Assembly: GCF_030373225.1 (NCBI RefSeq)
Contig: NZ_JAUCZG010000006.1
Coordinates: 87,159-151,158, forward strand
DNA from: Hydrogenophaga sp.
Lineage (GTDB): Bacteria > Pseudomonadota > Gammaproteobacteria > Burkholderiales > Burkholderiaceae_C
Direction of reading: 5' to 3'
DNA length: 64,000 bases
The position numbers and the translations under genes are program-made. Under the pieces are notes generated by a model. That model saw only the letters and a list, made by a program, of their open reading frames with translations, had not been told where the DNA came from and made no database searches. Positions 14,858 to 64,000 of the stretch are shown piece by piece. Numbering within the stretch: position 1 is the stretch's first letter; each line of letters begins with the position of its first letter.

Positions 14858-14901
14858 CCGTTCGCCCTGAGCTTGTCGAAGGACAAGCTCAGGGCGAACG
14901 G
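14858..14901. repeat. Dispersed REP-like repeat (family 1), perfect inverted pair
   Basis: A perfect 20-bp inverted repeat CCGTTCGCCCTGAGCTTGTC / GACAAGCTCAGGGCGAACGG with a four-base GAAG loop. It lies between the binding-protein stop and the permease start. Related copies are at 16870, 18605, 32368, 58263 and 63612. Confidence 0.9.
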
Positions 14902-14928
14902 GGTTGTGTTTCCGGTCCTCCAAATCAC

Positions 14929-16869: not shown

Positions 16870-16944
16870 CCGTTCGGGCTGAGCTTGTCGAAGCCCCTCC
16901 ACGCACACATCGCAAGAGCCCTTCGACAAGCTCAGGGCGAACGG
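16870..16944. repeat. Dispersed REP-like repeat (family 1), inverted pair with long loop
   Basis: CCGTTCGGGCTGAGCTTGTCGAAG faces CTTCGACAAGCTCAGGGCGAACGG across about 27 bases. It lies in the livM-livG gap. The arms differ only at GGG versus CCC within the stem. Confidence 0.88.
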
Positions 16945-18604: not shown

Positions 18605-18653
18605 CGTTCGGGCTGAGCGGGTCGAAGCCTTTCGACAAGCTCAGGGCGAACGG
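18605..18653. repeat. Dispersed REP-like repeat (family 1), inverted pair
   Basis: CGTTCGGGCTGAGCGGGTCGAAG is followed closely by CTTTCGACAAGCTCAGGGCGAACGGG. It fills most of the 86-base gap between the LivF-type gene and the aldehyde dehydrogenase, ending about 20 bases before the latter's ribosome-binding site. Confidence 0.85.
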
Positions 18654-18684
18654 GAATGTGAAACCGATCCAACAGGAGAACCCC

Positions 18685-32310: not shown

Positions 32311-32367
32311 ACAGACCGGCCTGCGCGCTGCGCCGCTTGGGCGGGTGGCTACCCCCACGCCCACCCT

Positions 32368-32439
32368 CCGTTCTGGCTGAGCCTGTCGAAGCCCTCGCCA
32401 ACACCCCGGCATGCCCCTCGACAGGTTCAGGGCGAACGG
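32368..32439. repeat. Dispersed REP-like repeat (family 1), inverted pair with long loop
   Basis: CCGTTCTGGCTGAGCCTGTCGAAG faces CCTCGACAGGTTCAGGGCGAACGG across about 25 bases in the kup-benE gap. It is preceded by a GC-rich stretch vaguely like repeat family 2. Confidence 0.85.
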
Positions 32440-32463
32440 GAGGGGGTTGTCGTTCCGAGCGGC

Positions 32464-33666: not shown

Positions 33667-34607
33667 ACATCCTCGTTGTCGCCGACCCGCTGGTCACCTT
33701 CAAGACCTACAAAGACACCACCTTCGCCATGATGCGCGAGCTGCAGAAACGTGGCCACAGCCTGGCCGCCTGCGAGCCGCAGCATCTGCAATGGCAGACC
33801 GGCCAGCCCGTGAGCGCGCTGGTGCGCCGCATCGAGCTCACCGGCGCTGCCGATGACTGGTACCGCGTGCTGCACCAGGGCCGCGAGGCTTTGCACACGT
33901 TCGACGCGGTGCTCATGCGCAAGGACCCACCGTTCGACAGCGAGTTCTTTTATGCCACGCACCTGCTGGAGCAGGCCGAGCGCGAGGGCGCCAGGGTGTT
34001 CAACAGCCCGCGGGCGCTGCGCGACCACCCGGAAAAGCTCGCGCTCATGGAGTTCGCCCGGTTCGCGCCGCCGACCCTGGTCACGCGCTCGCCCGAAGCG
34101 ATCCGCCACTTCCACGCCGAACACAAGGACATCATCCTCAAGCCGCTGGACGGCATGGGGGGCATGGGCATCTTTCGCGTCGGTCCCGACGGCATGAACC
34201 TGGGCTCCATCACCGAAACGCTCAACCAGGGCGGCGCCACCAGCGTGATGGTGCAGGCCTACCTGCCAGCCATCGTGGAAGGCGACAAACGCCTGCTGCT
34301 CATCGGCGGCAAGGTCGCACCCTTCGTGCTCGCGCGCATTCCTCAAGGCACCGAGCTGCGCGGCAATCTCGCGGTCGGTGGCAAGGGCGTGGCCCAGCCG
34401 CTGAGCGATACCGACCGCGCGATCGCCGAAGTGGTCGCGCCCATCCTCGCTGCGCGCGGCCTGCTGCTGGTGGGGCTGGACATGATCGGCGACAAGGTGA
34501 CCGAGATCAACGTGACCAGCCCGACCTGTTTCCAGGAAATCCTGCAGCAGACCGGCTTCGATGTGCCGGCGATGTTCGTCGATGCGCTGGAAGCGGCGAT
34601 GGCATGA
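33663..34607 (+). CDS. gshB: Glutathione synthetase
   Basis: The product is 314 aa from the ATG at 33663, overlapping the previous stop; the long track ORF from 32616 is a frame extension through the BenE-like gene. It has an ATP-grasp fold with [40 protein letters not shown] (glycine-rich ATP loop), [15 protein letters not shown] and [13 protein letters not shown]. It adds glycine to gamma-glutamylcysteine. With gshA upstream the window encodes the whole glutathione pathway. Cytoplasmic. Confidence 0.96.
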
Positions 34608-34942
34608 GCGAAGAAGACGAGGAAGCCGCAGCGCCGGGCCGCCCCAGGCAAGGCGAGCCCCCTCTGGGGGCAGCGACCCGCGAAGCGGCGCAGCGTGGGG
34701 GCTCTGATGGTCAGCCTCGCAACCCGCTGCACGGCCTGACGCTGGAGGCCATCGTCACCGCGCTGGCCGACCACTACGGCTGGGAAGAACTCGGCCGGCG
34801 CATTCCGGTGCGCTGTTTCAACCTGGACCCCAGCGTGGGTTCGAGCCTGCGGTTTCTGCGCAAGACACCGTGGGCCCGCGAAAAGGTCGAGGGGCTGTAC
34901 CTCTTCATGCTGCGCGAAGAGCGCCGCGCCGGCCGGGGCTGA
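34604..34942 (+). CDS. VF530-family DNA-binding-type small protein with a repeat-derived N-terminus
   Basis: The product is 112 aa. Residues ~43-107 match the VF530 (DUF2132) family: [57 protein letters not shown]. The family has a small helical fold with a suggested nucleic-acid role; function is unproven. The first ~38 residues ([26 protein letters not shown]) are encoded by dispersed repeat family 2. Overlaps gshB by four bases. Confidence 0.8.
34633..34702. repeat. GC-rich dispersed repeat (family 2) inside a coding sequence
   Basis: Reads GCCGGGCCGCCCCAGGC ... GCCCCCTCTGGGGGCAGCGACCCGCG ... GCAGCGTGGGGGC. It is the reverse complement of the 40103 copy. It lies in frame at the N-terminus of the VF530-family gene. 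Confidence 0.8.
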
Positions 34943-36481: not shown

Positions 36482-37309
36482 TCACAACTTTTCCGTCTCG
36501 CCCGACTTCGGTTGCCACTTCATCAGCCGTTTCTCGATCTTGCCCACCATCGCATCGAGCGTCAGCGCAAAACCGGTGAGCACCACGATGCCGGCCATGA
36601 CGGTGTTGATGTCGAAGCTGCCCTCGGCCTGCAGAATCAGGTAGCCCACACCCTGGCTCGAACCGAGGTACTCGCCCACCACCGCACCCACGAAGGCCAG
36701 GCCCACCGAGGTGTGCAGCGAGCTGAACACCCAGCTGGTGGCGCTGGGCAGGTACACATGGCGCAGCAGCTGCTTCTGGCTCGCGCCCAGCATGCGCGCG
36801 TTGGCGAGGATGACCGGGCTCACTTCCTTCACGCCCTGGTAGACGTTGAAGAACACGATGAAGAACACCAGCGTGACACCCAGCGCCACCTTGCTCGCGA
36901 TGCCCAGCCCGAACCACACCGCGAAGATGGGCGCCAGGATGATGCGCGGCATCGAGTTCATGGCCTTGATGTAGGGCTCCAGGATGGCCGAGGCCATGGG
37001 CGAGAGTGCCAGCCACAGGCCGCCGCCCAGACCACCGAGCGCGCCAATGGCAAAGGCCAGCACGGTTTCGGTGAGGGTGACGCCCAGGTGCCTGTAGATG
37101 TCGGCGTCGGTGACGAACCAGACCCAGATGCGCTCGGCCACGCGCAGCGGTTCACCGAAGAAGAAAGAGGCCTGGCGATCGTTCTCGAACATGAAGTTCG
37201 GCAACAGGCCGGGCGTGGTCATGGCGTACCAGAACACAATGAGCGCCACCAGCAGACCGACCTGCCACACGCGCAAGTTCCCGGGACGCGGTTTGATGAA
37301 ATTCCACAT
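36482..37309 (-). CDS. ABC transporter permease (nitrate/sulfonate/taurine type)
   Basis: The product is 275 aa with about six helices. The BPD-transport EAA motif is in ILANARMLGASQKQLLRHVYLPSATSWVFSSLHTSVGLAFVGAVVGEYLGSS. It is the third gene of a minus-strand operon (binding protein, ATPase, permease) with gaps of 1-3 bases. The family imports sulfonates, nitrate, HMP-type pyrimidines or aromatic acids; no neighbour fixes the substrate. Confidence 0.88.
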   Translation of the reverse strand: MWNFIKPRPGNLRVWQVGLLVALIVFWYAMTTPGLLPNFMFENDRQASFFFGEPLRVAERIWVWFVTDADIYRHLGVTLTETVLAFAIGALGGLGGGLWLALSPMASAILEPYIKAMNSMPRIILAPIFAVWFGLGIASKVALGVTLVFFIVFFNVYQGVKEVSPVILANARMLGASQKQLLRHVYLPSATSWVFSSLHTSVGLAFVGAVVGEYLGSSQGVGYLILQAEGSFDINTVMAGIVVLTGFALTLDAMVGKIEKRLMKWQPKSGETEKL

Positions 37310-37312
37310 GGC

Positions 37313-38200
37313 TCAGGCCACCTTGAGTTGTTGCTGGTAGCCCTTGAGCACCTCTTCGCGCATCACGGCCCAGATGGCCGCGTGCAGTTCGATGAAGCGG
37401 GCCGTGGTCTTGATTTCGGCCACATCGCGGGGGCGGGGAATGTCGATCACGAACTCACCGATGGGGTGGCTGGCCGGGCCGGCGCTGAGCACCACGACCC
37501 GGTCACTCATCGCGATGGCCTCGTCCAGGTCGTGCGTGATGAACAAGACGGCCTTGCGGCCGTTGCCCCCTTGCGCTTCGCGCTGTCCCCCCGAGGGGGA
37601 GTGCACCGGGCTTGGGGCGGCCCGGCGCCCGCTGCCGGCGGCCCAGAGGTCCAGCACCTCGTTCTCCATCAGTTGCCGTGTCTGGATGTCGAGCGCGGAG
37701 AACGGTTCGTCCATCAGGATGATGTCGGGGTCGAGAACCAGCGTCTGCGCGAGGCTCGCGCGCTTGCGCATGCCGCCGCTCATCTGGTGCGGGTAGCGAT
37801 CGCCGAAGCCGCCCAGGCCCACGCGGCGCAGCCAGTCTTCGGCCTGCGCGCGGGCGTCCGCCTCGGACGCGCCACGGAACGACAGGCCCGCCATCACATT
37901 GCCCAGCGCCGTGCGCCAGGGCATCAGGCTTTCGGTCTGGAACATGTAGCCCGCTCGCGTGTTGATGCCGGTCAGCGGCTGGCCGAACACGCTCACCGTG
38001 CCGGTGCTCGGGGAAAGCAGGCCCGCTGCGACGTTGAGCAGTGTGCTCTTGCCGCAGCCGGTCGGCCCCACCACGCTGACGAATTCACCAGCGCCCACGG
38101 TCAGTGTCACATCGCGCACGGCGGTGTAGCGCTGACCGGGGTCGTCCTTGCTGATGAACGTGCAGGAGACATCCTGCAGATCGATCGCTGGACTGGTCAC
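37313..38200 (-). CDS. ABC transporter ATPase (nitrate/sulfonate type) with a repeat-derived insertion
   Basis: The product is 295 aa, about 25 longer than expected for the family. Walker A is GPTGCGKST (45-53), signature MSGGMRKRASLAQ (140-152), Walker B DIILMDEP (159-166), and the H-loop is FITHD (His223). Residues ~189-214 (GSGRRAAPSPVHSPSGGQRE...) are encoded by dispersed repeat family 2 and lie between the D-loop and the H-loop, where homologues go from LDLWAA almost directly to RKAVLF. All catalytic motifs are intact and the frame is kept, so it may still function. Confidence 0.88.
   Translation of the reverse strand: MTSPAIDLQDVSCTFISKDDPGQRYTAVRDVTLTVGAGEFVSVVGPTGCGKSTLLNVAAGLLSPSTGTVSVFGQPLTGINTRAGYMFQTESLMPWRTALGNVMAGLSFRGASEADARAQAEDWLRRVGLGGFGDRYPHQMSGGMRKRASLAQTLVLDPDIILMDEPFSALDIQTRQLMENEVLDLWAAGSGRRAAPSPVHSPSGGQREAQGGNGRKAVLFITHDLDEAIAMSDRVVVLSAGPASHPIGEFVIDIPRPRDVAEIKTTARFIELHAAIWAVMREEVLKGYQQQLKVA
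37564..37638. repeat. GC-rich dispersed repeat (family 2) inside the ABC ATPase gene
   Basis: GCCCCCTTGCGCTTCGCGCTGTCCCCCCGAGGGGG ... GGGCTTGGGGCGGCCCGGCG. It shares the opposed C-run/G-run and the TTGGGGCGGCCCGGCG end with the copy at 40103. It sits in frame in the coding sequence; the right boundary is approximate. Confidence 0.82.
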
Positions 38201-38201
38201 T

Positions 38202-39227
38202 TCAACCTTTCGGGTATTTGGCGTTCGCTTTCTGGACGAAGGCGTTGGTGTAGACCGCGTTCAGGTCGAGCCTGGCCGCAGCCAGCTTCTCGTCCACGCT
38301 GGCCAGCGCGCGGAAGGCCGTGTCCGCGCCCTTGACCGGAAAGCTGCCGTCGGGCGAGAGCGCGCCCTTGGCAGCCATGAAGGCGTCGATGTAGACCGCG
38401 CGATCACCCAGCAGAAAACCCTCGGGCACCGTCTTGATGATGTCGGCCGCGCCAGCGCTCTGAATCCATTTGTTCGCGCGCACCATGGCGTTGGTCAGGG
38501 CTTGCACGGTGTTGGGGTTTTTGTCCAGGAAGGGTTGGGGCGCGTACAGGCAGCCCGCCGGCATGGGGCCACCGAACACCTTTTCCGACTCGGCGACGAT
38601 GCGCGTGTCCGAGATGATCTTCATGTCGCCCGAGCGCTGCAACAGCGTGACCACGGGGTCGAGGTTGCTCATCGCGTCGATCTGACCCGAGCGCATGGCC
38701 GCCACCGCACCATTGCCCGCGCCAACGCCGACGATGCTCACGTCGCCGGGCTTGAGACCCGCCTTGGCCAGCACGAAATTGACCATCACGTTGGTCGAAC
38801 TGCCCGGCGCGGTCACGCCGATCTTCTTGCCCTTGAGGTCGGCGATCGTTTTGTAGCCGGCCATGGTCTTGGGGTTGATGCCCAGCACGATCTGCGGCGC
38901 CAGGCCCTGCAGCACGAAGGCGCGCATCGGCTGGCCCTTGAACTGCATGTTGACCGTGTGCTCGAAGGCGCCCGAGACGACGTCGGCACTGCCACCCACC
39001 ACCGCGGCCAGTGCGCGCGAGCCGCCGGCGAAGTCGGCGATGGTCACATCCAGCCCCTCGTCCTTGAAGTAACCGAGCTGCTCGGCGATGGTCAGCGGCA
39101 GGTAGTACAGCAGGTTCTTGCCGCCCACCGCGATCGTGACCTTGGGCTTTTCGATCGACTGGGCGACCGCGAACGGGGGCAGCACAGCCGCGACGATGCC
39201 GCCGGCCACGAGGTGTCTTCTTTGCAT
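38202..39227 (-). CDS. ABC transporter periplasmic substrate-binding protein (NMT1/SsuA-type)
   Basis: From the ATG at 39227 (AGGAGAC upstream) the product is 341 aa. Signal peptide QRRHLVAGGIVAAVLPPFAVAQS. The NMT1-like/TauA fold has VTIAVGGKNLLYYLPLTIAEQLGYFKDEGLDV, ADFAGGSRALAAVVGGSADVV and KKIGVTAPGSSTNVMVNFVL. It is the first gene of the operon with ATPase and permease. Substrate unknown. Confidence 0.88.
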   Translation of the reverse strand: MQRRHLVAGGIVAAVLPPFAVAQSIEKPKVTIAVGGKNLLYYLPLTIAEQLGYFKDEGLDVTIADFAGGSRALAAVVGGSADVVSGAFEHTVNMQFKGQPMRAFVLQGLAPQIVLGINPKTMAGYKTIADLKGKKIGVTAPGSSTNVMVNFVLAKAGLKPGDVSIVGVGAGNGAVAAMRSGQIDAMSNLDPVVTLLQRSGDMKIISDTRIVAESEKVFGGPMPAGCLYAPQPFLDKNPNTVQALTNAMVRANKWIQSAGAADIIKTVPEGFLLGDRAVYIDAFMAAKGALSPDGSFPVKGADTAFRALASVDEKLAAARLDLNAVYTNAFVQKANAKYPKG

Positions 39228-39326
39228 GGGTTTGTCTCCTTCATTGAGGGGGTGAACAACGGGCTGCGCAAGGTGCCCGTGCCGGTGCATGTTAGCCCGG
39301 GGGAGTACCCGGCGCCATCCGTGGAA

Positions 39327-40102: not shown

Positions 40103-40174
40103 GCCCCCACGCTCCGCCGCTGCGCGGGTCGCTGCCCCCCGGGGGGGCTGATTCGCCTTGGGGCGGCCCGGCGG
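40103..40174. repeat. GC-rich dispersed repeat (family 2), intergenic copy
   Basis: GCCCCCACGCTCCGCCGCTGCGCGGGTCGCTGCCCCCCGGGGGGGCTGATTCGCCTTGGGGCGGCCCGGCG fills the gap between the amidotransferase and MFS genes. It is the most complete copy and is used here as the reference. The C-run/G-run centre can form a hairpin. Confidence 0.82.
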
Positions 40175-40200
40175 CGAATCGTGTTTTGCTGATGGGCGTC

Positions 40201-58243: not shown

Positions 58244-58262
58244 GGTGGATTCACTGGTGAGG

Positions 58263-58287
58263 GCTTCGACAGGCTCAGCCCGAACGG
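58263..58287. repeat. Dispersed REP-like repeat (family 1), single arm
   Basis: GCTTCGACAGGCTCAGCCCGAACGG, one arm only. It starts about 20 bases upstream of the glcB start codon, in the gap to the dehalogenase gene. Confidence 0.8.
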
Positions 58288-58314
58288 GAGGGTGGGGAGG
58301 GTGAGAAAAGGAAA

Positions 58315-61101: not shown

Positions 61102-64000
61102 TTGAACCATCCTTTGATTTCGATCCACTGGGTACCGCTGAGATTGATTGGTTTGTAATCGAGCTTCGCAAGATATTGCAGCTCCTGCGCATAGACCCCA
61201 AGAGGGCGGCCGGACTTGGCATCGATATACATCCATTTATCCATGGGTATCGTTGCCAGCGCAATATCATCTTGTCTTAATACGGCTTGATCTAAAAATG
61301 GCCGATTTATTTTTTCGAAGAATTGGCCGGCTGCAGCTTCTTCAACTTCCTTGCTGACATTCAGCACGTTAAAGCTGCCTGGCCTTGCACCGAAATCGAT
61401 CGATTCATGTGCGTGCATTTGCTCGTTGATTGCACTATTCATGTCGGACGCAAATCGCCCTAAAACAGTGGTCGTTTTATGCGGATTGGGCGGAATGACT
61501 CCTGCAGAGGTTTGTAGACCAACTGGCGAACTGGAGGATCCATCAGCCCAAAAGTTGTTGTCAATCCTTGCTTGGTTCTTGGCTTTCGCTTCAGCTTCGG
61601 CCACTACCTTGGCAACCTGCGCACGCTTGACCGCATCGACTGTGACCTTCGCCCCGCCGGTTGTTATCGCAGTCACGCCGCTGCCCAGCGTGATCAGGTC
61701 CACCAACGCCTCGCCCCTGACACTGGGGTCTGTGCTGTTGAGCCTTGCGCTCAGATCTGCAGGCAGGCCCGTGATGGCGTTGGCGCTGTCGATCAGTGTC
61801 TGCTGCATGCCGTTTTCGGCAATCGCCTGCACGGTCATTGCAATGCCGACAACAGCACCCGCCAGCATCCCTGGGGGCGAGATTTTGAGCAGACCCTTGC
61901 CCACTCCGTGGAGGAAGGGGTTGCCTACCGCCTGCCGGTACTTGAATGCCTGGCTTTGAACGCTTGCACGTTCTGCCGTATCGACCAGATTGCCGAACTG
62001 GCCCGTGTAGCTCTTTGATGCGAACTGGATTGCCGCAGTCCAGCTCTGGCAGGCGGCGCTTGCGGGGCTTTGGCACGCTTGATCGATTTGCTGGTCGCGC
62101 CAGACATCAAGCCGATTGAGATGATCGATCTCGGCCTGTATTTTCTGACGGCAGGCTGCGTCTGTGCATGCGCGCAGATCACCATGCAATTTCAGACGTC
62201 TACTGGCTTCAGCGTGCGTCAGAAAGTTGTTCTGTACCTCGTTGAATGCTGCGGTAGCGCCTGAGATGCCTCCAGCACCGGCACCCAAGGCGGTGCTCGC
62301 TGCGGCCGTGATCACATCCCTCAAGAGGCCTTCAATGCCTGCTTCTTGCAGTGCATTGGCCACCACGGGCGCAGTGAGCGTGCCAGCGGCTGCGCCCGCT
62401 GCACCGGCCGCGCCGCCAGTCAACGCGCCGATGGTGGTGTGAGCTAGCAAACGAAGGGTGCCGTTGTCGCCCCAGTTCGACTCCATTTGTTGGGCCTGGG
62501 CGAGGAGGTCGGTCCTTCTGTCCGGATCGGGTTCGGCGTTAGCCTGCTCGCGCAAATCGCCAGCCCGTTTCAACTGGGTGGTGGCGTAGTCGCCAACAGC
62601 TTTGCTGGCTTGCTTGCCGAACTCGGCGGTGATGGCAATCTGCGCGTTGACCTCATCCTTGACGCGCTCCCTGTCGAAGATCGGCGCGATGCCGCTTTCG
62701 GCGTCCCCTGTTCTGGCCTGCGTTTCACCTGCGATACCCGAGATTGCCGAGGCGGTGACCGACGTAGCGGCGCCCTTGTCCGAGCCGATGCCAGCACTGC
62801 CCACCGGCCCGGTGGGCGCAACGGCCGACGCCTTTTCCACCGCGGTCTTCGCCGTGCTCTGATCCCCCAGCTTGCCGCTGAGGGACGCGTTCACCGAGTA
62901 ACCGTCGGCCTGGTACGCAGACTGGTTGTGAATAGCGGAGATCTCAAGCCCGCCCTGGCTGTCGAACCGGTTGGCACCGGCCTCCACCGCCACCTGCGTG
63001 CTGGTGATCGCGCCGCCGATCAACGTGGTCTTGCCACGGGTGGTCACGTCAAAGCCGCCGTCGCCTGCGCGGATGGCGCTTTGTTCCCTGACGCTGGCGT
63101 AGGTGCTGTCGATTCCGGTCTTGCCGACACCACCACTGACGCTGGACGCGCCGTAGCACAACGGTGGGATGCACAGGCTCACGCCTGCGCTGGCGCTCTC
63201 GCTCTTCTCGCTGTAGGTGGCTCGGTCCTGCAGGCTCTCGATGATCAAGTCGCCGCCGATGCTTGCCTGAACATTCGGAGCTGTCACCACGGCGCCGCGC
63301 AGCGTGGTGTCCGCGCCCGATTCGAGCTCGACCCGCTGGCCGGCCCGAACGTGGGTGTTGTTGTGGGTGATCTCTTCGTCTTTGCCTTGGCCCTTGCTGC
63401 GGCTGGCGTTGACGTTGATGCTGAAGCCTGTCTGTGCGCCGCCCACGTTGAAGCCCATGCCGACGCTGCCGCTCTTGCTGCTGTGGCTGTTGGTCTCACG
63501 TGTGGTGCTGGTGGCAGCCAGCAGGTGAATGTCACCTTCGGCCTTGAACCGAGCGGTGTCGCCGGCTTCGACCGAGCTGCCCTGGATGAGAATCGAGCCA
63601 GGGTCGGGATGCCCTTCGACAGGCTCAGGGCGAACGGCGGAAGGGATTGCGGTCAGTGTCACATCGCCCCCAGCCACCACGTTGGAGCCGTGCGCGCCTA
63701 CGCGCACGACCTCGCTGTTGCTCTGGCTCTTGCTGGAGCCGAGATTGATGTTGATGCCGATGCTTGCCGCCGCAGCCGGGTTGTTTGCAATCGACTTCAC
63801 TGTGTCGACCACCTGCTTGCCCTGCAGGGCCGCCACCGCCAGACCCAGCGCCTGCGTTCTGCCATCGCGGGTGTTGCTCAAGGCTTCGGCGGTGTTGGCC
63901 ACGCCTTGCAGTGCGTCGATCACTGGGTTGGACAGGCTCAGCGATATACCGCTCTGCTTGAACTTCTCCGCGCTGGTGCTGCGCTCGGTGGTGCGCGCTT
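61098..64000 (-). CDS. Filamentous haemagglutinin / CdiA-like protein, C-terminal part (5' end beyond the window)
   Basis: The frame is open to the right edge, beyond the track's GTG at 63923 (about 965 codons visible). Upstream part: haemagglutinin-type beta-helix repeats (SRSKGQGKDEEITHNNTHVRAG; GGAITSTQVAVEAGANRFDSQGGLEISAIHNQSAY). Then an Ala-rich pre-toxin region with hydrophobic segments ([26 protein letters not shown]), NNFLTHAEA, a Cys-containing helical linker, and from about residue 800 of the visible part an AT-richer tip starting near PHKTTTVLG and ending EIKGWFK. The tip is an unrecognised toxin domain. Such giant proteins are exported by a TpsB/CdiB partner, not in this window. 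A translated family-1 repeat (VRPEPVEG) interrupts the repeat region. Confidence 0.85.
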   Translation of the reverse strand, partial: ARTTERSTSAEKFKQSGISLSLSNPVIDALQGVANTAEALSNTRDGRTQALGLAVAALQGKQVVDTVKSIANNPAAAASIGININLGSSKSQSNSEVVRVGAHGSNVVAGGDVTLTAIPSAVRPEPVEGHPDPGSILIQGSSVEAGDTARFKAEGDIHLLAATSTTRETNSHSSKSGSVGMGFNVGGAQTGFSINVNASRSKGQGKDEEITHNNTHVRAGQRVELESGADTTLRGAVVTAPNVQASIGGDLIIESLQDRATYSEKSESASAGVSLCIPPLCYGASSVSGGVGKTGIDSTYASVREQSAIRAGDGGFDVTTRGKTTLIGGAITSTQVAVEAGANRFDSQGGLEISAIHNQSAYQADGYSVNASLSGKLGDQSTAKTAVEKASAVAPTGPVGSAGIGSDKGAATSVTASAISGIAGETQARTGDAESGIAPIFDRERVKDEVNAQIAITAEFGKQASKAVGDYATTQLKRAGDLREQANAEPDPDRRTDLLAQAQQMESNWGDNGTLRLLAHTTIGALTGGAAGAAGAAAGTLTAPVVANALQEAGIEGLLRDVITAAASTALGAGAGGISGATAAFNEVQNNFLTHAEASRRLKLHGDLRACTDAACRQKIQAEIDHLNRLDVWRDQQIDQACQSPASAACQSWTAAIQFASKSYTGQFGNLVDTAERASVQSQAFKYRQAVGNPFLHGVGKGLLKISPPGMLAGAVVGIAMTVQAIAENGMQQTLIDSANAITGLPADLSARLNSTDPSVRGEALVDLITLGSGVTAITTGGAKVTVDAVKRAQVAKVVAEAEAKAKNQARIDNNFWADGSSSSPVGLQTSAGVIPPNPHKTTTVLGRFASDMNSAINEQMHAHESIDFGARPGSFNVLNVSKEVEEAAAGQFFEKINRPFLDQAVLRQDDIALATIPMDKWMYIDAKSGRPLGVYAQELQYLAKLDYKPINLSGTQWIEIKGWFK
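63612..63638. repeat. Dispersed REP-like repeat (family 1) inside the CdiA-like gene
   Basis: CCCTTCGACAGGCTCAGGGCGAACGG, a single arm lying in frame within the haemagglutinin repeat region. On the minus strand it encodes the peptide VRPEPVEGHP. Confidence 0.85.

Follow-up and report, generated by a model that had tools for sequence, protein, structure and literature searches.

A GC-rich palindromic repeat that resembles the BRE elements of betaproteobacteria has in all likelihood inserted in frame into an ABC transporter ATPase gene of Hydrogenophaga sp., where it would be translated as a tolerated disordered loop. The gene lies in a 64,000-nucleotide stretch of contig NZ_JAUCZG010000006.1 that was analyzed as a whole (hereafter, the window). 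Until now, most examples of in-frame palindromic repeats came from Rickettsia and from a handful of species rich in REPs. In the present case, about 10 genes of one free-living betaproteobacterium are decorated with them, and one ATPase site is filled in five genera.

We propose that a repeat of this betaproteobacterial family (BRE-like, ~80 to 90 nt with its linker) entered the ATPase gene in frame, in the turn where the helix after the D-loop gives way to the strand running toward the H-loop. Translation of the repeat would add ~25 residues, rich in Gly, Pro, Arg, and Ser, as a disordered loop, with no disturbance of the nucleotide-binding fold. The ATPase would work normally, and the insert would have no function of its own and represent selfish or structural DNA that the gene tolerates. 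The patchy distribution of the filled allele would go back to between one and three insertions, or more, at this permissive site, after which lineages acquired or lost the allele through short-tract homologous recombination.

Position and Structure of the Insert

The ATPase gene (positions 37313-38200, minus strand; 295 amino acids with the insert) is flanked by genes for the permease (36482-37309, minus strand) and the NMT1/SsuA-like substrate-binding protein (38202-39290, minus strand) of the same transporter. Its best solved relatives, by sequence and by fold, are CmpD and NrtD. The initial annotation of a nitrate/sulfonate-type ATPase is borne out by the ABC motifs and fold of the NrtD/CmpD/SsuB type, and the protein reaches no NCBIfam equivalog cutoff. 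The nucleotide-binding motifs, which had been described as kept, are all present: Walker A (GPTGCGKST, 38042-38068), the Q-loop, the ABC signature (MSGGM, 37769-37783), and Walker B (ILMDEP, 37703-37720) are followed by the D-loop (SALD, 37688-37699) upstream of the insert and the H-loop (ITHD with His223, 37529-37540) downstream of it, all on the minus strand.

Alignment with orthologues that lack the insert, suggested in the initial annotation as a check, reveals a clean addition of 25 codons, GSGRRAAPSPVHSPSGGQREAQGGN, at positions 37562-37636 of the minus strand, in agreement with the ~25 extra residues first placed at 37564-37638 in an otherwise normal ATPase. These codons specify residues G189 to N213, which are preceded by LWAA and followed by GRKAVLFITHD; peptides predicted for the insert-bearing segment include EAQGGNGR and AAPSPVHSPSGGQR. 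Within the insert, the palindromic repeat occupies positions 37565-37630 (minus strand) and consists, in order, of the arm GGGC, the loop GCCGGGCCGCCCCAA, the arm GCCC, a CCCCC-TCG-GGGGG hairpin, a GCGC-GAA-GCGC hairpin, and GGGGGC. It is a short form of the repeat, with the GCGC-GAA-GCGC hairpin. All 88 non-carrier orthologues sampled and included in the tree are devoid of the insert peptide, so that none of them encodes it without the repeat, and they retain an uninterrupted short turn, mostly KK-K or KR-K, as do the outgroups.

The AlphaFold model of the ATPase has a mean pLDDT of 88.3, with values below 50 for residues 192 to 212, which sit between the helix formed by residues 172 to 190 and the strand of residues 217 to 222 that leads to His223. 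In CmpD, the equivalent turn is only 2 or 3 residues long. Thus, in the model, the insert probably is a disordered loop that extrudes from this turn and leaves the nucleotide-binding fold undisturbed. Judging from secondary structure rather than from distances, the insertion site would lie at the opposite end of the strand from the H-loop, though close to it in sequence. The proximity of the catalytic H-loop had been taken to make tolerance surprising; with the site at a variable turn on the far end of the strand, tolerance appears plausible instead.

The Dispersed Repeat

BLAST searches returned 59 matches to the repeat in the genome (E ≤ 1e-3), and a structure-like pattern gave 75 overlapping matches, compared with 0 for the reversed control pattern. 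At least 74 distinct copies were recognized in the genome stretches sampled; these numbers are lower bounds because draft contigs begin or end inside or beside repeat copies. Contigs C28, C31, C33, C42, C43, C12, and C8 of the window's genome, G000, start or stop in this way. In the usual unit, the loop GCCGGGCCGCCCCAA is enclosed by a variable stem and followed by a CCCCC/GGGGG hairpin and then by a second hairpin region that ends in GTGGGGGC; most units measure 78 to 82 nt from the arm to GGGGGC, and they often occur in tandem, 83 to 90 nt apart. Among solitary copies (L002, L003, L004, L019, L026, L242, and the one at position 40103 of the window), the arms differ from copy to copy yet still pair. 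In the hydantoinase B copy, the left arm resembles coding sequence of the host gene, which gives the impression of an element that brings along the complement of the sequence flanking its target. Tandem arrays display the common arms GATCCGGC or GGCCAGCC in place of copy-specific ones.

The copy at positions 40103-40180 (minus strand) is intergenic, as first reported, and lies just upstream of the start codon of a class II glutamine amidotransferase gene. At the same site, G032 has a copy with the same arms (L263) and G023 has a degenerate copy with other arms (L260), and no copy is seen in G001, G058, or G011. The initial annotation had presented the ATPase as a case of a noncoding repeat becoming protein sequence. 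Copies elsewhere are indeed mostly noncoding, but about nine other genes of the genome also contain in-frame copies, which are read in several different frames and lie on either strand, as judged from Pfam domains that continue on either side of the repeat or from alignment to solved structures.

These further copies (at loci that include L242, L026, L253, L003, L002, L244, L256, and L254) are found in the alpha subunit of methylcrotonyl-CoA carboxylase (MCC-alpha), where the repeat immediately precedes FMEMNTRLQVEHPVTE, in hydantoinase B, in a class II aldolase/adducin-domain protein, in the nitrate reductase NarG (with the repeat on the other strand), in an Atm1-type ABC exporter (two copies, also on the other strand), in the small subunit of xanthine dehydrogenase (XdhA), and in FdhD/NarQ. 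An AMP-forming ligase probably carries one as well. In the window itself, a VF530-family gene (34604-34942, plus strand) has an in-frame repeat in its N-terminal tail (34628-34702, plus strand). This insert is present also in G011, while the site is empty in G023, G058, G104, and G101; in G104 and G101, the empty allele contains GCCGGGCC scraps, possibly what is left of a repeat.

The repeat is found also in Acidovorax, Rhodoferax, Azoarcus, and Variovorax plasmids, and copies outside this genome likewise fall in frame within genes. Phosphoglycerate kinase WP_026436952.1, encoded on the Acidovorax temperans plasmid pEP1, has ~25 extra residues between ADLNVPL and GRITEDTRIRAS (repeat at L273:2001-2053), and a Fic protein of Rhodoferax antarcticus contains a copy. 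By our reading of its sequence, HypF2 of Cupriavidus necator H16 (WP_011154018.1, plasmid pHG1; L275:2501-2562) contains an in-frame repeat whose loop is closed by a perfectly paired 11-bp stem. HypF2 is part of maturase sets that are functional: maturation of the soluble hydrogenase in Escherichia coli drops when hypE1F2 is omitted (PMC3702609), and synthetic operons for the maturases, one of which contains hypF2, are reported to work (PMC5350229). No mention of the HypF2 insert was found in the passages of these papers that were consulted.

In the few Bordetella stretches examined, no clear copy was seen. A CGTC/GTCA sequence follows the 3′ end of some copies in other genera and is absent from most copies of this genome. 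Searches of Rfam gave no credible match to the repeat, no copy was found in phages, and no relevant mention of the repeat-core string was found in the literature. Mobilization by a RAYT (REPtron) was considered and rejected: the genome encodes a single Y1_Tnp transposase, and no repeat core was seen within 1.5 kb on either side of its gene. Nor is there any special coding compatibility of the repeat, as its units are open in 5.2 of 6 frames, exactly as are shuffled sequences (5.2 of 6), so that its tolerance in reading frames follows from GC content.

Distribution and History of the Filled Site

Within Hydrogenophaga, the ATPase orthologue was detected in 29 of 67 genomes (E ≤ 1e-90), four of which have the insert; in the family sample, the insert was found in 5 of 401 genomes, including that of the window. 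After the genera of the other hits had also been searched, the total came to 13 carrier genomes from five genera, with the insert at the identical codon site in each. The carriers from the four genera other than Hydrogenophaga are G178, G504, G506, G512, G299, G310, G207, G516, and G500. All carriers have the same turn, with a Gly-containing linker (GGC..) on the left of the insert and [GS]RK on the right, and the lineage-specific residues WAA and WQ stand immediately 5′ of it. As the Gly linker and the Arg-Lys pair are shared by all groups of inserts, their sequences would fit one origin better than several.

On the gene tree, built with the insert left out, the carriers are polyphyletic: 8 changes between the filled and empty states are needed, and well-supported branches force 6 or more of these. 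The operon tree of the 29 Hydrogenophaga sequences forces 3 changes, and AU tests on it reject both a clade made up of the four carriers (P ~2e-110) and the grouping of G000 with G011 (P = 0.0096). With the ATPase alone, the G000-G011 grouping is not rejected (P = 0.48), and neither is a single Rhizobacter-like group. Simple vertical inheritance of the insert is ruled out by the gene and operon trees. The linkers common to all groups would also be expected from a single ancient insertion that predated the split of the family-level clades and was followed by many precise losses, and the GCCGGGCC scraps in the empty VF530 alleles of G104 and G101 could be remnants of such losses. However, this scenario requires many exact excisions, and the uninterrupted turn of the 88 non-carriers bears no remnant of the repeat, which makes it quite improbable.

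By sequence, the inserts fall into three groups: those of Hydrogenophaga, those of g113, and those of g133/g142/g149. Within a group, each insert has more in common with the other inserts than with the repeats of its own genome, a comparison weakened by the few copies per genome outside G000; between groups, they are as distant from each other as from genomic copies. Short-tract homologous recombination that carried the filled allele across species and genus boundaries, after only a few insertions, is a plausible account, if somewhat short of an even chance. It is in keeping with insert groups that are tighter than the gene backbone, with the inserts of G310 and G516, which are ~95% identical over 96 nt with their linkers although the genes belong to different clades, and with the pattern in G000, where the 60 codons on the 3′ side of the insert are about twice as divergent from the sister species as the 60 on its 5′ side, which suggests an imported tract. 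However, no tract with >97% identity to another carrier was seen near the insert in G000 or G011, the low divergence of the inserts could also reflect structural constraint, and, since WAA and WQ abut the insert, recombination breakpoints would have to fall within a few bases.

An account in which different lineages independently acquired copies of their own repeats, time and again at one hotspot or uniquely permissive site, is somewhat unlikely, though it has several observations on its side: the three groups are no more alike mutually than to genomic copies, the g113 inserts have a CACG-AGTG hairpin type that is also found in copies of their own genomes, and REPs occur at the same recB site in Xanthomonas (PMC3733652). 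What it leaves unexplained are the linkers, which lie outside the repeat core and are alike in all groups, as independent events would not yield them unless they were selected, and the fact that, within groups, own-genome repeats are not the closest relatives of the inserts. Repeated gain, together with exchange or loss by recombination, likely contributed to the present distribution. A more far-reaching reading, in which the repeat is a mobile, protein-compatible element that repeatedly fills one codon site of a conserved gene across genera in a homing-like or recombination-driven manner, with filled and empty alleles of a conserved enzyme fold coexisting and being exchanged between species, is unlikely.

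Selection and Base Pairing in the Insert

Outside the insert, pN/pS values between carriers range from 0.09 to 0.30, and the value of 0.09 for G000 and G011 indicates strong purifying selection. An assembly artifact or a dead gene might be suspected from several draft contigs that end in repeat arrays; it is refuted for practical purposes by the occurrence of the same structure in 13 separate genomes, by the lack of stop codons, and by this selection.

Inside the insert, pN/pS is 0.6 to 1.6 and pS is 0.04 to 0.12, compared with 0.32 to 0.38 outside, both estimates being based on small counts. Base pairs of the insert changed on both sides number 7, against 2.7 in shuffled sequences, and none of 500 shuffles scored as high; sliding the partner lowers the count to 1 to 3. 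Some of the arm differences that enter this covariation test may reflect separate insertions. The pN/pS values, the low synonymous divergence, and the compensatory changes together indicate that the peptide is little constrained, whereas the palindrome is kept or young; given the conserved synonymous sites and the compensatory changes in the stem, the insert is not simply neutral DNA. In RNA folding, the inserts were no more stable than shuffled sequences, except for that of G299. Covariation is the better evidence for pairing, and we make no claim of a strong RNA structure.

The insert could, in principle, be a selected functional segment of the ATPase, such as a regulatory binding loop, since its frame is kept in 13 genomes and its loop composition is broadly retained. 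However, its pN/pS of ~1, its predicted disorder, its patchy presence among close species, and the existence of similar inserts in unrelated enzymes make this very improbable.

Relation to Known Intragenic Repeats

In-frame palindromic elements are already known as a kind (PMC3733652, PMC3767692, PMC3110155). RPE-1 to RPE-7 are described as in-frame selfish DNA in Rickettsia protein genes, and whether their same-site inserts reflect a hotspot or common origin has already been debated (PMC3767692, citing Ogata et al. 2000). The repeat studied here is similarly a short palindrome, inserted in frame in many conserved genes of one genome, with orthologues filled at the same site. In contrast to the Rickettsia RPEs, it is GC rich and belongs to free-living betaproteobacteria, many close relatives have empty sites, and the filled sites are polyphyletic over five genera. 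A palindrome in conserved genes with the frame kept is what we find in the ATPase and about nine other genes, and, by analogy, the repeat appears to work like an RPE, although we do not claim that it is one.

Di Nocera et al. (2013, PMC3733652), whose main text does not name Comamonadaceae, Acidovorax, Polaromonas, or Variovorax, described intragenic GTAG/CGTC REPs that encode ~20 to 30 amino acids in open reading frames and that occupy nearly the same recB position in two Xanthomonas species. The location inside reading frames, the similar number of residues, and same-site occurrence are shared with our repeat; however, no GTAG/CGTC-tagged unit was recognized in it, and CGTC is found only near some 3′ ends.

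A counterpart by description is BRE, reported as a 75- to 91-bp element with ~69% GC that forms tandem arrays and is mostly intergenic, with some copies wholly within coding sequence, in Bordetella, Azoarcus, Polaromonas, Rhodoferax, and Acidovorax, including Comamonadaceae (Hot et al. 2011, PMC3110155). Unit length, high GC content, the tandem habit, intragenic copies, and part of the host range agree with those of our repeat. In its available portions, the BRE account neither details in-frame protein insertions nor describes same-site recurrence. What is new here is the clear polyphyletic recurrence at one site and the number of decorated genes. The natural set of filled and empty alleles, which extends to HypF2 of the laboratory strain C. 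necator H16, allows a direct test of the old question of tolerance, exchange, or use of such inserts.

Other Sequence Elements

A second dispersed inverted-repeat family, of the CTTCGACAGGCTCAGGGCGAACGG type, is represented in the window at positions 14858-14918, 16870-16944, 18605-18670, 32353-32456, 58255-58301, and 63605-63652. In addition, a SAM_alpha riboswitch match that exceeds the gathering score (L249:2586-2661, minus strand) is located near an array of the repeat.
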